Shown here piece after piece: positions 37,717 to 44,558 of a stretch of DNA of 64,000 nucleotides (positions are counted from its first letter, which is position 1; each line of letters opens with the position of its first letter). The translations under genes and the position numbers were made by a program. Source of the DNA: Gloeomargarita sp. SRBZ-1_bins_9. Lineage in GTDB: Bacteria; Cyanobacteriota; Cyanobacteriia; Gloeomargaritales; Gloeomargaritaceae. The notes below the pieces were generated by a model, which made no database searches, was not told the origin of the DNA, and saw only the letters and a program-made list of their open reading frames with translations. The stretch covers positions 1 through 64,000 of the forward strand of contig JAUQVX010000013.1 in the NCBI GenBank assembly GCA_039794565.1, written 5' to 3'.

Positions 37717-40308
37717 GTGCAGCCGACCGACCCCAATAAATTCACTGAAAAGGCCTGGGAAGCGATTGTCAAGTCCCAAGACATTGCCCGCCGCTATCGC
37801 CAGCAGCAATTGGAAGTGGAACATCTCATGTTGGCGCTGCTGGAGCAGAACGATTATGCCGCCAAAATGCTGGTGCAAAGTGGGTGTGACCTGGCGCAGT
37901 GCACCCAGCAGTTGGACCTGTTTGCCCGGCGGCAACCCCAAGTCAGCGCGGCCAATGGGCAACTGTATCTGGGGCGGTTTTTAGACATCTTGCTGGACCG
38001 GGCGGAAGCCCAGCGCCTGACCTGGAACGATGCCCTGATTTCCGTCGAGCACCTGCTGCTGGGGTTTAGCGAGGACGAACGCCTGGGCCGGCGGTTGCTG
38101 CAAAGTCTGGGGGTGACTACTGAGCAACTGATCACTGCTATCAAAGCCATCCGGGGTAACCAGCGGGTGCAGGACGCCAACCCGGAGGCCCACTATCAGG
38201 CCCTGGAGCGCTATGGCCGGGATTTGACCGAGCAGGCGCGTGCGGGGAAGCTGGACCCAGTGATCGGGCGAGATGAGGAAATCCGGCGGGTCATCCAGGT
38301 CCTGTCACGGCGCACGAAAAATAACCCGGTGCTCATTGGTGAACCGGGGGTGGGGAAAACGGCCATTGCCGAGGGTCTGGCGCAACGAATTGTCAATGGG
38401 GACGTGCCGGAATCCCTGAAAAACCGCCGTTTGATTTCCCTGGATGTGGGGAGTTTGGTGGCGGGGGCGCGCTACCGGGGGGATTTTGAAAAGCGTTTGC
38501 AGGCGGTGCTGCGGGAGGTCACGGAAGCCGCCGGGCAGGTGATTTTGTTTATTGACGAGCTGCATACGGTGGTGGGGGCGGGAGCGACCCAGGGCACCAT
38601 GGACGCGGGCAATCTGCTCAAACCCATGCTGGCCCGGGGCGAGCTACGCTGTATTGGGGCCACCACCCTGGACGAATACCGCAAGCACATTGAGAAAGAC
38701 GCGGCCCTAGAGCGGCGTTTCCAGCCCATTCGCGTCGAAGAACCCAGCCTGGACAACGCCATTGCCATCCTGCGGGGTCTGAAAGAGCGCTATGAGGTGC
38801 ACCACGGGGTGAAAATTGCCGACGCGGCCCTGGTGGCAGCCGTCACCTTGTCGGTGCGCTATATCCCCGACCGTTTCTTACCCGACAAGGCCATCGATCT
38901 CATTGACGAGGCCGCCGCCAAATTGAAGATGGAAATTACGTCCAAACCGGAGGAATTAGAGGTCATTGAACGGCGGCTAATGCAACTGGAAATGGAGCGC
39001 CTGTCCCTGGTGGATGACCGGGATGCCGTCAGCCAAACCCGTCTGCGGAAAATCGAGCAGGACATTGCGGTCTTGAGTGCCCAGCAACAGTCCCTGAACC
39101 GGCAGTGGCAAAGCGAAAAACAACTCCTGGAGGCCATCAAAGCCCTAAAACAGGAGGAGGAGCACATCCGGGTGCAAATTGAGCAGGCGGAGCGCAACTA
39201 TGACCTGAACCGGGCGGCGCAGTTGAAGTACGGTCGTCTGGAGGCCCTGCATCAGGAATTGGAGGCTAAAGAAGCGGCCCTGGCAGAAATCCAGTCGCGC
39301 AGTTCCACCCTGTTGCGGGAGCAGGTCACGGAAGCAGATGTGGCGGAAATCGTCGCCAAGTGGACGGGGATTCCGGTGCGACGGCTGCTGGAATCGGAGC
39401 GACAAAAACTGTTGCATCTGGAGCAATACCTGCACCAGAAGGTGATCGGCCAGGACCAGGCGGTGAAGGCGGTTGCGGCTGCCATTCGGCGGACCCGCGC
39501 GGGTTTGAAGTCGCCCCGGCGTCCCATCGGTTCGTTTCTGTTTTTAGGCCCCACAGGTGTTGGGAAAACGGAACTGGCCCGCACTTTAGCCGAAGCCCTG
39601 TTTGACAGCGAGCAGGCCCTAGTGCGCCTGGATATGTCGGAGTATATGGAAAAACACAGCATTTCCCGTCTGTTGGGGGCGCCGCCGGGGTACGTGGGCT
39701 ATGAAGAAGGGGGGCAGTTGTCCACGGCTATTCGCCGGCGTCCCTATGCGGTGGTGTTGTTGGATGAGATTGAAAAGGCCCACCCCGACATTTTCAACGT
39801 ACTGTTGCAAATTCTGGACGACGGGCGGGTAACGGATTCCCAGGGGCGGCTAGTGGACTTTCGCAACACCATCATTGTCATGACCAGCAATATCGGCAGT
39901 GAACTGATCCTAGAAGGCAGCGAAACTCCCGCCTATCTGGAGCCGAAAATTCGCCAGTTGTTATCGGCCCATTTTCGCCCGGAATTTCTCAACCGCATTG
40001 ACGAAATCATCATTTTCCACTGTTTGAACCGGGAGCAACTGCGGGCGATTGTGCAATTACAAATCCAACAGCTCCAGCAATTGCTGGCCGAGCAGCAGGT
40101 GACGTTGGAGGTGACGCCGGCGGCAGTGGACTATTTGGTGACGGCGGGCTATGACCCGGCCTACGGCGCGCGACCCCTGCGACGGGCAATCCAACGGGAA
40201 TTGGAAAATCCCTTGGCTGACTTCCTACTCAGTCAACCCCCCAGTGGCCCCCTAAAAATTCGCGTGGATATGCAAGGCCAGCAATTAGCGCTCGTGCGGT
40301 GCCTGTGA
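37717..40308 (+). CDS. clpB: ATP-dependent disaggregase ClpB
   Basis: An 863-residue Hsp100 chaperone of standard length, beginning at GTG 37717. It has an N-domain with two Clp_N repeats (1-145), AAA-1 with Walker A GEPGVGKT and Walker B FIDELHT, a long coiled-coil M-domain (about 405-525) that distinguishes ClpB from ClpC/ClpA, and AAA-2 with [23 protein letters not shown] and GYVGYEEGG pore loop. It resolubilises protein aggregates with DnaK. No CIRCE element or clear heat-shock promoter is visible in the 47-bp upstream gap. Its end overlaps the psiE-like gene by 24 bp. Confidence 0.96.
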
Positions 40309-40737
40309 ACGGCGGATAATCCAGTAACTGACGGACAGGGCCAGGACTGCCGCCGCCAAACCCACCAGCCCCAAACCCGTGGTTTTCTCCAAATCCAAAA
40401 TAATGATTTTCCGGGCTACGGCAATGAGGGAGGTGACAATGACTAACTCCACCTGAAACACATGCCTGCGCAGGTAAGCCGTAATATTTTCCAGAATCTC
40501 CAGGGCAATCAATACATTCAAAAACGCCCCGAAAATCGTAAACAAATTCTCGCCAAAAAATCCCTTGGGTTTGCTGGCGAGTTCCACAACTAATAGGCGC
40601 AATAAATCGATCAACGCGATGACAATCACCCCCACCATGGCCAAGGAGAGCAAGCGGGCCACCCCCCCTTCGACCGACGCGATAAACCCCAGGAACCCGG
40701 TTTCTCCCCAGAAATCCCTAAACCGCCAGCGTTTCAT
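40285..40737 (-). CDS. PsiE-family (phosphate-starvation-inducible) membrane protein
   Basis: About 150 residues from ATG 40737; the longer frame overlaps ndhF. Four membrane helices are visible (LLSLAMVGVIVIALIDLLRL, LFTIFGAFLNVLIALEILEN, LVIVTSLIAVARKIIIL, LGLVGLAAAVLALSVSYWI). The EILENI...YLR and ARKIIILDLE motifs are those of the PsiE domain. The function of PsiE proteins is unsettled. The start lies 4 bp beyond the ndhF3-like stop, so the two are an operon. Confidence 0.78.
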   Translation of the reverse strand: MKRWRFRDFWGETGFLGFIASVEGGVARLLSLAMVGVIVIALIDLLRLLVVELASKPKGFFGENLFTIFGAFLNVLIALEILENITAYLRRHVFQVELVIVTSLIAVARKIIILDLEKTTGLGLVGLAAAVLALSVSYWIIRRSQAPHER

Positions 40738-40741
40738 GGCC

Positions 40742-42568
40742 CTAGCGCCCGAGCTGCCAGAGCCACCAGCCCACCAGCACCACCCCCGCCAGGATGGTGA
40801 GCACATAGAGCTGGGATTTACCGCTGACGCTGTATTTGAGCAGTTGGCCGCTGAAGATCGTCGAGACCCCCAGGAAATGCACCAGCCCGTCCACCACGTA
40901 GCGGTCCAACCAAGCCGTCAGCCGGGAGCCAACCCGCACCAACTGCACCACCGTTGCCTGGTACACCGGTTCAATGTAGAAGTCGTAGGCCAGCAAATCC
41001 TGCCCCAAACGCCACCACCGCTGGGTTGAGCGCAGACCCCGTCGTTCCAGTTTGAGCAGCGCTCCGGCTCCTACCCCCAGCGCCCCCGAGGCCACCAGCA
41101 ACAGGACTTCCCCCCGCGGCCAGGGTCCCCAGGTCCCCAGCGGCAGCCACCGATTCAGGAACACCGGCGCCAACACCGTTATCACCATCATCGCCACCAT
41201 CGGTACGGCCATCGGCCAGGCCACTTCCGGCGTCCGGCGGGTTTTGGGCTGCACCGGCCCCAGAAACACCAAACGAAACACCCGCGTGAGATTGAGGGCA
41301 CACAGGAAATTCACCGTCAACACCAGGCCCAACAATCCATTGGGCAGGGTGACCGACCAGCGGCTCAGCACCCAAAACATACCCAAGGGAAACAGGGCCA
41401 CCAACCCCGCCGCCCCCACCACAAAACTCAGCAGCGTCGCCGGCATCCGCCGCCCAATCCCTCCCATTTCCGTCATGTTTTGGCTAGAGGTGGTGATGGT
41501 AACCGCCCCCGCGCTCATAAACAACGACACCTTAGCCACTGCATGGGCCAGCAACAACAAAAAAGCAATATCCGGCTGTTGCAGACCCACGGCAATAAAC
41601 ACCAACCCCAAGTAGGCACTGGTGGAGTGGGACAGCGTCCGCTTGATGTCAATCTGCGCCAAGGCCATCAACATCGTACCGAGAGCCGTCACTGCCCCCA
41701 AAAAGATCAAAGCGGCCAAGGCAACTGGCGAACGGGATACCACCGGCTCCAACTGAATCAACACATAAGCCCCAGCCATCACCACCACCGAATTGCGCAA
41801 AGCCGAAGCCGGATGGGGACCTTCCATGGCTTCATCCAGCCACAGGTGCAAAGGAAACTGGGCGCACTTACCCGTCGGCCCGGCAATCAAGGCCAACCCC
41901 AGCCAAGTCCACCCCAGAGGAGACAAATCCGCCGTTTTGGCCCAGGCAGTGATTTCGGGAAACGTCAACCCCGCCCCCAACCCCGATAGAGCTACTACCC
42001 CCATTAGGAAGATCACATCCCCCACCCGTTTGGTCAAAAACGCATCTCGGGCCGCCTTCACCACCAGGGGTTGGGCGTACCAAAAGCCCACCAGCAAATA
42101 GGTAGATAGGGTGAGCATCTCCAGCAGAGCATAACTCAAAAACAGGGAATCACTCAGGGCAATCCCCCCCAAAGCCGATTCAAAAAAGCCCAGCAAACTG
42201 TAAAACCGCGCCAGGGACCAATCCTTTTCCATATAGCCCAGGGCGAACAATTGGGCCAGCAAGGTAAAGGCATTGACCGTTGTTAAAGCCAGAAGCGTAG
42301 CCGGTGAAACCGTTATCGCCAGAGTCAGGTCCAAATTCGCCACCTGAAACCAGGGCCACGTCAACTCCCGGGGGGGAAAATCACCGCCGACAACAAGGGC
42401 CAAGCCGCTGTGAAGGAACGCCAGCAGTGAAGCCAGCATATTGAGATAAGCTGCCGGTCGTTGCCCCGTGCGCCGAATCAGGCCCAGGGACCAGGGCAGG
42501 GTGATGATAGCCCCCAGTAGCCCATAAATCGGGCATAGCCAAACCGTCTCCAGCATCCAGTGCCCCAT
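40742..42568 (-). CDS. NDH-1 subunit NdhF3/NdhF4-like (CO2-uptake type NADH-dehydrogenase subunit 5)
   Basis: A 608-residue, multi-helix antiporter-like subunit (proton_antipo_M fold). Starting from the ATG at 42568 (AGG seven bases upstream; GTG at 42574 is an alternative), the N-terminus WLCPIYGLLGAIITLPWSLG and the segments GYMEKDWSLARFYSLLGFFE, ARDAFLTKRVGDVIFLMGV and GKCAQFPLHLWLDEAMEGPHPASAL match NdhF3/F4 of cyanobacterial NDH-1MS complexes. It is shorter than NdhF1 (about 680). These complexes drive CO2 hydration with CupA/CupB. Unusually, no ndhD or cup gene follows; a PsiE gene does. Confidence 0.82.
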   Translation of the reverse strand: MGHWMLETVWLCPIYGLLGAIITLPWSLGLIRRTGQRPAAYLNMLASLLAFLHSGLALVVGGDFPPRELTWPWFQVANLDLTLAITVSPATLLALTTVNAFTLLAQLFALGYMEKDWSLARFYSLLGFFESALGGIALSDSLFLSYALLEMLTLSTYLLVGFWYAQPLVVKAARDAFLTKRVGDVIFLMGVVALSGLGAGLTFPEITAWAKTADLSPLGWTWLGLALIAGPTGKCAQFPLHLWLDEAMEGPHPASALRNSVVVMAGAYVLIQLEPVVSRSPVALAALIFLGAVTALGTMLMALAQIDIKRTLSHSTSAYLGLVFIAVGLQQPDIAFLLLLAHAVAKVSLFMSAGAVTITTSSQNMTEMGGIGRRMPATLLSFVVGAAGLVALFPLGMFWVLSRWSVTLPNGLLGLVLTVNFLCALNLTRVFRLVFLGPVQPKTRRTPEVAWPMAVPMVAMMVITVLAPVFLNRWLPLGTWGPWPRGEVLLLVASGALGVGAGALLKLERRGLRSTQRWWRLGQDLLAYDFYIEPVYQATVVQLVRVGSRLTAWLDRYVVDGLVHFLGVSTIFSGQLLKYSVSGKSQLYVLTILAGVVLVGWWLWQLGR

Positions 42569-42600
42569 CGTCACACCTGAGGTTATTGTCCCATGTTGAG

Positions 42601-43584
42601 CTACCAGTAGCAGCCGGACTCGACGATGTCAGCCTTGGGTGGCACTTCGTGGGGCGCTGGCCGCACCCAATATTCATTGTAGAGCCGTTGAAAAAACGGG
42701 CGTTCATCCCACCGTTTGCCCTTGATGCCAAAAAGAATCTGGGTCGCGCCCCCCAAGTGCACTGCTTTTTTCCCCAGACGTTTGACATGGGCCGCCAAGG
42801 GTAACCCATAGGCCCCCGCTCCAATCAGGGCAATATCGAAGTCCATTTGGGCAATTTGCTCAGCCATCCAATCGAGAGCTGCAAACCAATCGGGAAAACC
42901 ACAGTCATTTCCGGCAATGGATTGTACCGCCTTAAACGTTTTCAGCTCAAATTCCGGCAACACATCGGGATTCTGAAACAGAAGTTCTCGTTTGCGATAC
43001 TGCTGCCAAATTGTATCGGCGAACGGATGGACGACCAAAACCGTCTTTCCCCGGAGCGCCTTCGACCAAGGCCGTTCATGGTAATAGGGTTCTAAGTCTT
43101 CCAGTTTGACCTTAACTGCCTGGCGAATCAGTGGGCTGAAGAGACGCTCATCAGGTAGCCAGGAACCCAGCACATCGATCAAGGGCATATCCTGAAGCAT
43201 CCGTTCGCAAAAGCGCTCCAGGTAGGCCGGTTCTGCTGGGAAGAATCCCGCATTGTAGCGCATCTTTTTTTTGATATTGTCATCCCACCAAAATGGCCCC
43301 CCTCGACCAGTGATATAGCCCCAGCTTTTTTGCCCGGGAAATGTCGTTTTTTTATGAATCCAGTAGTAATGGGCCAGCGCTCCGAGTTCCACACCCCCAA
43401 AACGGGCGATCATACAGGGTTCAAGCGCGGCTATTTGGTCCTGGATGACGTCACTGGCGGCCTGCCCCGTGTAGTCCACGACCGGTAACGATAGCGTTGG
43501 CTGGACTCCCGTCAATTTCCTGCCCCAACCGTAGAGACGGCGACCCGTATTGAGCAAACGAATTGTCAAGCCCTTCACCGTCAT
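42601..43584 (-). CDS. GT-D/DUF1792-like putative glycosyltransferase, copy 1
   Basis: About 327 residues from ATG 43584. A TTG at 43596 lies within the previous gene's stop. It contains the RFG-x-x-E motif (MIARFGGVELGAL), the VLVVHPFADTI motif, and a C-terminal IALIGAGAYGLPLAAHVKRLG, GGATQILFG pattern. This combination is seen in GT-D fold (DUF1792) transferases of polysaccharide loci. The assignment is by motif resemblance only. It is a tandem duplicate of the following entry and is transcribed after it. Confidence 0.6.
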   Translation of the reverse strand: MTVKGLTIRLLNTGRRLYGWGRKLTGVQPTLSLPVVDYTGQAASDVIQDQIAALEPCMIARFGGVELGALAHYYWIHKKTTFPGQKSWGYITGRGGPFWWDDNIKKKMRYNAGFFPAEPAYLERFCERMLQDMPLIDVLGSWLPDERLFSPLIRQAVKVKLEDLEPYYHERPWSKALRGKTVLVVHPFADTIWQQYRKRELLFQNPDVLPEFELKTFKAVQSIAGNDCGFPDWFAALDWMAEQIAQMDFDIALIGAGAYGLPLAAHVKRLGKKAVHLGGATQILFGIKGKRWDERPFFQRLYNEYWVRPAPHEVPPKADIVESGCYW

Positions 43585-43589
43585 TGCCG

Positions 43590-44558
43590 TCACCAATAGG
43601 CTTTGACGCGACCGATTTTGGGGGGAATTTCGTGGGGAAACGGACGCACCCAGTGCTCATTATATAACTGTTGAAAGAAGGGGATTTCGTCCCAGCGTCC
43701 CCCCTTGATGCCCAAAAGAATCTGCGTCGGACCCCCCAAATGGATGCCTTTTTTCCCCAGGCGTTTGACATGGGCCGCCAAGGGTAACCCATAGGCCCCC
43801 GCCCCAATGATTGCAATGTCGAATTCAATTTTCCCTATTTCTTCACACATCCACTCGAAAGCTGCAAACCAATCGGGAAAACCACATTCATTCCCCGCGA
43901 TCGATTGCACTGCTCGCAAGGTCTTTAACTCAAACTCCGGGAGTACATCGGGATTGGCAAACAGTTTCTCCCGTTTCTGATACTGCTGGCGAATAGTATC
44001 CACAAAGGGGTGAACCACCAGGACCCTTTTGCCACGCAAAGCACAGGACCAGGGATGCTCATGGTAGTAAGGCTCCAAATCAGGAAAACGTACCAAGCGC
44101 GCCTGGGTTAACAAATGGCAGATTTGGCGCACCATGTAGTCCTGCTTCCCTTGCCAAAGCGCCAAAACATCAATGAGGGGCATATCCGCCAGCAGCCGTT
44201 CACCAAAGCGCTCCACATATTCAGGTTTAGCCGGAAAAAAACCCGCATCCATGCCGATGGATTCCAGAGCGCTGGCGTCCCACCAGAAATGATGGATACG
44301 ACCACGGATATAATTCCAGGATTTTTCTCCCCAGTACAGGGCAGGACGGCGGATGTGATAGGCCCGCAACGTTGCATTCAACTCCACATTGCCAAAACGA
44401 CAAATCAGACAGGGGTTGGGGGCTTCAATGACCTGTTGAATGTAATCGCTGGCCGCTTGACCCGCATAGTCCACCTCTATTGGGGGCGCAACCACCGGTC
44501 GAACCCTGCCGTACACCCGCCGCAGCAATTTCAAGGTTGGAATGATCCCCGGTAACAA
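43590..44558 (-). CDS. GT-D/DUF1792-like putative glycosyltransferase, copy 2
   Basis: A 322-residue paralogue of the adjacent copy, very similar from the RFGNVE motif to the end (for example NPDVLPEFELKT and QSIAGNECGFPDWFAA versus QSIAGNDCGFPDWFAA). The start is TTG 44558 with GGAGAT six bases upstream; no in-frame ATG is close. The same RFG-x-x-E, VVHPF and IGAGAYGLPLAAHVKRLGKK motifs are present. The first 45 residues differ most between the copies. It is the upstream gene of the pair, with 5 bp between stop and next ATG. Confidence 0.6.
   Translation of the reverse strand: MLPGIIPTLKLLRRVYGRVRPVVAPPIEVDYAGQAASDYIQQVIEAPNPCLICRFGNVELNATLRAYHIRRPALYWGEKSWNYIRGRIHHFWWDASALESIGMDAGFFPAKPEYVERFGERLLADMPLIDVLALWQGKQDYMVRQICHLLTQARLVRFPDLEPYYHEHPWSCALRGKRVLVVHPFVDTIRQQYQKREKLFANPDVLPEFELKTLRAVQSIAGNECGFPDWFAAFEWMCEEIGKIEFDIAIIGAGAYGLPLAAHVKRLGKKGIHLGGPTQILLGIKGGRWDEIPFFQQLYNEHWVRPFPHEIPPKIGRVKAYW

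Follow-up and report, generated by a model that had tools for sequence, protein, structure and literature searches.

An ndhF4 gene beside psiE in Gloeomargarita very probably belongs to a split NDH-1MS' operon

Results

The window (the whole 64,000-nucleotide stretch of Gloeomargarita DNA that we analysed) contains an intact open reading frame at 40742..42574 on the minus strand. Its product, 610 amino acids from a GTG start or 608 from an alternative ATG at 42568, scored 833 bits against the TIGR01960 ndhF3_CO2 profile (cut-off 588.7) and belongs to the CO2-uptake NdhF family. Based on this score, its place in the F4 clade and its conserved residues (discussed below), we refer to the gene as ndhF4, encoding a putative antiporter-like subunit of NDH-1MS'. 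The ndhF4 stop codon is separated by 4 bp from the ATG of psiE (40285..40737, minus strand), which encodes a small membrane protein of 150 amino acids. PsiE family membership is indicated by a PF06146 score of 123.5 bits (cut-off 23.9; a longer ORF was scored), and psiE is the only PF06146 match in the window genome. The clpB gene (37717..40308, plus strand), identified by its Pfam ClpB domains, is convergent with psiE and overlaps its 3' end by 24 bp. Directly upstream of ndhF4 lies a GT-D-fold-like gene (42601..43596, minus strand; PF22882, 34 bits), followed by a second, tandem GT-D-like paralogue (43590-44558, minus strand) that falls below the Pfam cut-off. GT-D-like genes also lie upstream of ndhF4 in the related genomes G117, G118, G119 and G121; none was found in the stretch of G085 searched around ndhF4.

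Whole-assembly profile searches identified no ndhD or cup gene beside ndhF4: the contig, C13, gave a single Proton_antipo_M match, ndhF4 itself, and no ChpXY match. The contiguous ndhF4-ndhD4-cupB order, which is usual though not universal, is absent from the window genome. These searches and the coordinates confirm what an earlier note on this DNA had described, an intact NdhF3/F4-family gene 4 bp upstream of psiE with no adjoining ndhD or cup.

The earlier note also called this NdhF an orphan, which proved to be wrong. The assembly (2.22 Mb in 21 contigs, completeness 99.98) contains two Cup (ChpXY) genes, one on contig C1 and one on C11. On C1, cupA is part of a complete ndhF3-ndhD3-cupA operon. 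On C11, ndhD4 (C11:6691-5228) and cupB (C11:5243-4110; ChpXY match) stand together at C11:6691-4110 without an ndhF of their own, so the matching partners of the window gene are present in the genome. The C11 Cup retains the HHxxHDR residues. Beyond ndhD4 is a divergent tRNA-nucleotidyltransferase-like gene, a name read from sequence alone. On the other side, a TPR protein gene (L013:3665-4117, minus strand) overlaps cupB by 8 bp, and a TPR gene also follows cupB in the five other same-genus genomes that have cupB. Separately, a putative SulP-type bicarbonate transporter (assigned by eye) is encoded at L009 (G000:C14:1-1899), where it adjoins Mrp-like subunits including an NdhD/MrpD-like protein.

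To assign the two sets, we compared their proteins with the solved NdhF3 and CupA of 6TJV. The C1 NdhF and Cup scored 696 and 751 bits, while the window NdhF and the C11 Cup scored 530 and 347 bits. Because the C1 proteins are closer to solved NdhF3 and CupA, C1 encodes the NdhF3/CupA set and, by exclusion, the window and C11 together encode the NdhF4/NdhD4/CupB set. When 125 distinct NdhF3/F4 proteins (best matches rather than a full sample) were placed in a tree with 6 NdhF1 outgroups, F4 (99/99) and F3 (26/26) formed pure clades with supports of 0.949 and 0.992, respectively. The F3 and F4 labels had been assigned beforehand from scores against the window or C1 protein, and the name F4 rests on C1 best matching the solved NdhF3/CupA rather than on database-named NdhF4. 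The window protein groups with NdhF4, outside the F3 clade.

According to PMC6981117, Arg37, Tyr41 and Glu114 of NdhF3 complete the zinc site of CupA (His130, Arg135) in the 6TJV structure. The window NdhF resembles the NdhF3 of that NDH-1MS complex (PDB 6TJV, chain F) in its near full-length match and in retaining all three residues, as R39, Y43 and E116. Among 101 F4 alignment rows, which include two duplicates and one protein truncated at a contig end (the source of the gaps), the position equivalent to Arg37 is R in 98, K in 2 and a gap in 1; that of Tyr41 is Y in 100 with a gap in 1; and that of Glu114 is E in all 101. The window protein differs from chain F in its clade and in carrying Leu at the position of the chlorophyll-connecting His469. 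This position is His in 26/26 NdhF3 rows and in 0/101 NdhF4 rows (2 duplicates); from this alignment, the chlorophyll/carotene pigment site joined by His469 looks specific to the high-affinity complex.

Purifying selection was detected on ndhF4, psiE, ndhD4 and cupB in every pair compared. For ndhF4, dN/dS was about 0.1 or less in 4/4 pairs. Over the comparisons as a whole, dS was high in several pairs and near saturation in some. The CupB stretches of G118 and G119 each showed one stop; those frames are stop-free in the genome search, and we take the stops as the alignment overrunning the gene end. An ndhF4 pseudogene is ruled out by the absence of an internal stop and the low dN/dS. In all likelihood, the window gene functions as a normal NdhF4.

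Eight genomes from the order were searched, among them the one that contains the window: seven of the same genus and G122, from another genus of the same family. In 6/7 same-genus genomes, ndhF4 adjoins psiE and ndhD4-cupB is located elsewhere. One of these genomes, G121, is only 83% complete. In all six, ndhF4 and psiE share a strand and, with the starts chosen, lie 4 to 82 bp apart, and psiE adjoins clpB in 7/7 same-genus genomes, including G120, which is described below. The ndhD4-cupB pair is flanked by tRNA-nucleotidyltransferase-like and TPR genes in the five relatives that have it, as in the window genome. In contrast, G122 carries the canonical ndhF4-ndhD4-cupB order, its ndhF4 cut by the contig start, and has psiE on another contig. 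The simplest reading of these gene orders is that the operon was broken up along the line leading to the window's genus, following divergence from the G122 lineage.

With the window assembly divided into 21 contigs, ndhF4 and ndhD4-cupB could in principle appear separated through an artefactual contig break. However, both loci are contig-internal with intact flanking genes, and the near-complete genomes G085 and G117 show the split on a single contig, at a distance of ~730 kb in G085 and ~1.6 Mb along the record in G117. These two genomes contradict the artefact, to which we give almost no credence.

In a wider set, we examined the best-scoring 80 loci by the window protein among the matches listed. 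In 73/80, the ndhF4 orthologue is followed within 1.5 kb downstream by a C11-type ndhD, and in 64/80 a C11-type cup also follows within 6 kb. ndhD is absent downstream in 5/80 loci with enough sequence, and 2/80 were too short to tell. One of the five, L046, and contig C18 of G121 are apparently a single record (same NdhF scores). The others, L064, L114, L120 and L124, come from a Microcoleaceae MAG, Okeania and Trichodesmium MAGs and the RI_101 MAG; ORFs were inspected at L064, L114 and L124. Separation of ndhF4 from ndhD4 in these four loci points to repeated splitting of the operon, and because of them a contiguous operon is not a strict criterion.

The ndhF4-psiE pair occurs in 1/80 of these best loci, from a genome of the window's genus, and no psiE was found in the available DNA of the other 79, some of which end at contig ends. 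The earlier note proposed looking for the pair in other cyanobacteria. The pair was indeed seen again, but in a single genus, where 6/6 genomes with ndhF4 (of 7) carry it. The note would have given up its idea if a complete ndhF3-ndhD3-cup operon existed elsewhere and the pairing did not recur: the operon is there, on C1, but the recurrence of the psiE pairing goes the other way. No mention of the pair was found among the matches listed from open-licence papers, which included an apparently unrelated one on RNA-switch identification and a Pho-regulon review.

The PF06146 profile match is what the window PsiE shares with its family. Sequence searches identified no solved relative of PsiE at E up to 10. 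AlphaFold2, given 8 sequences, produced a poor model with four helical segments (mean pLDDT 56.8). A second, divergent PsiE-family gene is present in the sister genomes G085 (C1:2522713-2523027) and G120 (C1:721353-721667), and a divergent PsiE-family gene is also present in G122 (C172:1251-1562).

The remaining same-genus genome, G120, is 99% complete in a single contig. It carries ndhF3 and cupA and keeps psiE-clpB, but a genome search found no ndhF4, ndhD4 or cupB. G120 is the sister of G085 with a support of 0.999 (in this tree, ClpB was missing for G122 and the CupA of G119 was a 202-residue piece). Because G085 has ndhF4, ndhD4, cupB and psiE, the absence in G120 is best read as loss. 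Near psiE, DNA homology between G120 and G085 picks up again 9 bases before the start used for that gene. At the ndhD4-cupB site, homology ends ~20 bases upstream of the tRNA-nucleotidyltransferase-like gene, and 16 kb of G120 at this site gave no NdhD4, CupB or TPR match. Two separate loci are thus jointly missing while psiE is left, which links ndhF4 with ndhD4-cupB rather than with psiE, albeit in a single case from one genome.

Local gene order, and that alone, had suggested that the NdhF might join PsiE in a separate variant complex lacking NdhD4 and CupB, for example a PsiE-coupled transporter. The idea of a variant complex, raised in the earlier note, finds no support in the genomes: a matching ndhD4-cupB without its own ndhF is available, the residues corresponding to Arg37, Tyr41 and Glu114 of NdhF3 are kept, and in G120 ndhF4 is missing along with ndhD4-cupB rather than with psiE. 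We regard such a complex as very improbable. The alternative of a split operon, offered in the same note, is the one that ndhD4-cupB on C11 supports.

Discussion

We conclude, with a probability of about 0.92, that the window gene encodes a subunit of the low-affinity CO2-uptake complex NDH-1MS', that the operon for this complex is split, and that psiE became its neighbour by relocation. The window gene product would be NdhF4, which is the terminal membrane subunit of the constitutive NDH-1 complex for low-affinity CO2 uptake (NDH-1MS', NDH-1_4). In the ancestry of the genus, the ndhF4-ndhD4-cupB operon would have been split, with ndhF4 coming to lie upstream of psiE-clpB and ndhD4-cupB remaining joined beside the tRNA-nucleotidyltransferase-like gene. 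By transfer from the NDH-1MS' of Synechocystis and the NDH-1MS structure of Thermosynechococcus, we infer that the proteins still assemble as usual, NdhF4 beside NdhD4, with CupB held at the cytoplasmic face. NdhF4 would contribute its Arg, Tyr and Glu at the site where CO2 is hydrated, and this hydration would be powered by redox-coupled proton pumping. PsiE would be a neighbour, perhaps co-transcribed, rather than a required part, and the complex is predicted to be independent of it.

Split genes for NDH-1MS' are already on record elsewhere. The set of Synechocystis PCC 6803 (NDH-1_4; NdhD4-NdhF4-CupB) is, like that of the window genome, not one operon: cupB appears to lie apart from ndhF4-ndhD4, judging from the wording 'ndhF4-ndhD4 and cupB' (PMC5853218) and from the locus names slr1302 versus sll0026/sll0027 (PMC9120777). 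What the window genome has in common with it is an NdhF of the NdhF4 clade together with genes for the matching NdhD4 and CupB. Unlike in Synechocystis, ndhF4 is the separated gene here, ndhD4-cupB stay joined, and psiE follows ndhF4. In Thermosynechococcus TA-1, ndhD4 is remote from the rest of the NDH-1_4 genes (PMC9120777). As in the window genome, one gene of the set is remote, but it is ndhD4 there and ndhF4 here.

Could PsiE nevertheless be part of NDH-1MS', as a subunit that is specific to this lineage, is expressed together with NdhF4 and has an accessory, assembly or regulatory role? The two genes adjoin in all six same-genus genomes with ndhF4, always on one strand and separated by short gaps (4 to 82 bp), and psiE is under purifying selection in 5/5 pairs. 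Given this constant arrangement, shared transcription or a functional link between ndhF4 and psiE is possible. A subunit role is nonetheless improbable, since psiE persists in G120, where ndhF4, ndhD4 and cupB were not found and the psiE-clpB neighbourhood exists without ndhF4; in G122 it is on a contig other than that of the canonical operon; and it is missing from the available DNA at 79/80 best ndhF4 loci, some ending at contig ends. An equally doubtful extension is that the genus recruited PsiE, a small membrane protein, to help insert, stabilise or regulate NdhF4, for example linking low-affinity CO2 uptake to phosphate status, with separation from ndhD4-cupB allowing NdhF4 supply to follow a different signal.

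The split-operon reading also fits what is described for Synechocystis, where CupB depends on NdhF4 for its attachment to the membrane and is soluble when NdhF4 is lost (PMC5853218). The joint absence of ndhF4, ndhD4 and cupB in G120 is a small natural experiment that agrees with this dependence of CupB on NdhF4. A false lead is removed: nothing at this locus calls for a variant CO2-uptake complex. Annotation that relies on gene neighbourhood only could miss NDH-1MS' in the window's genus.
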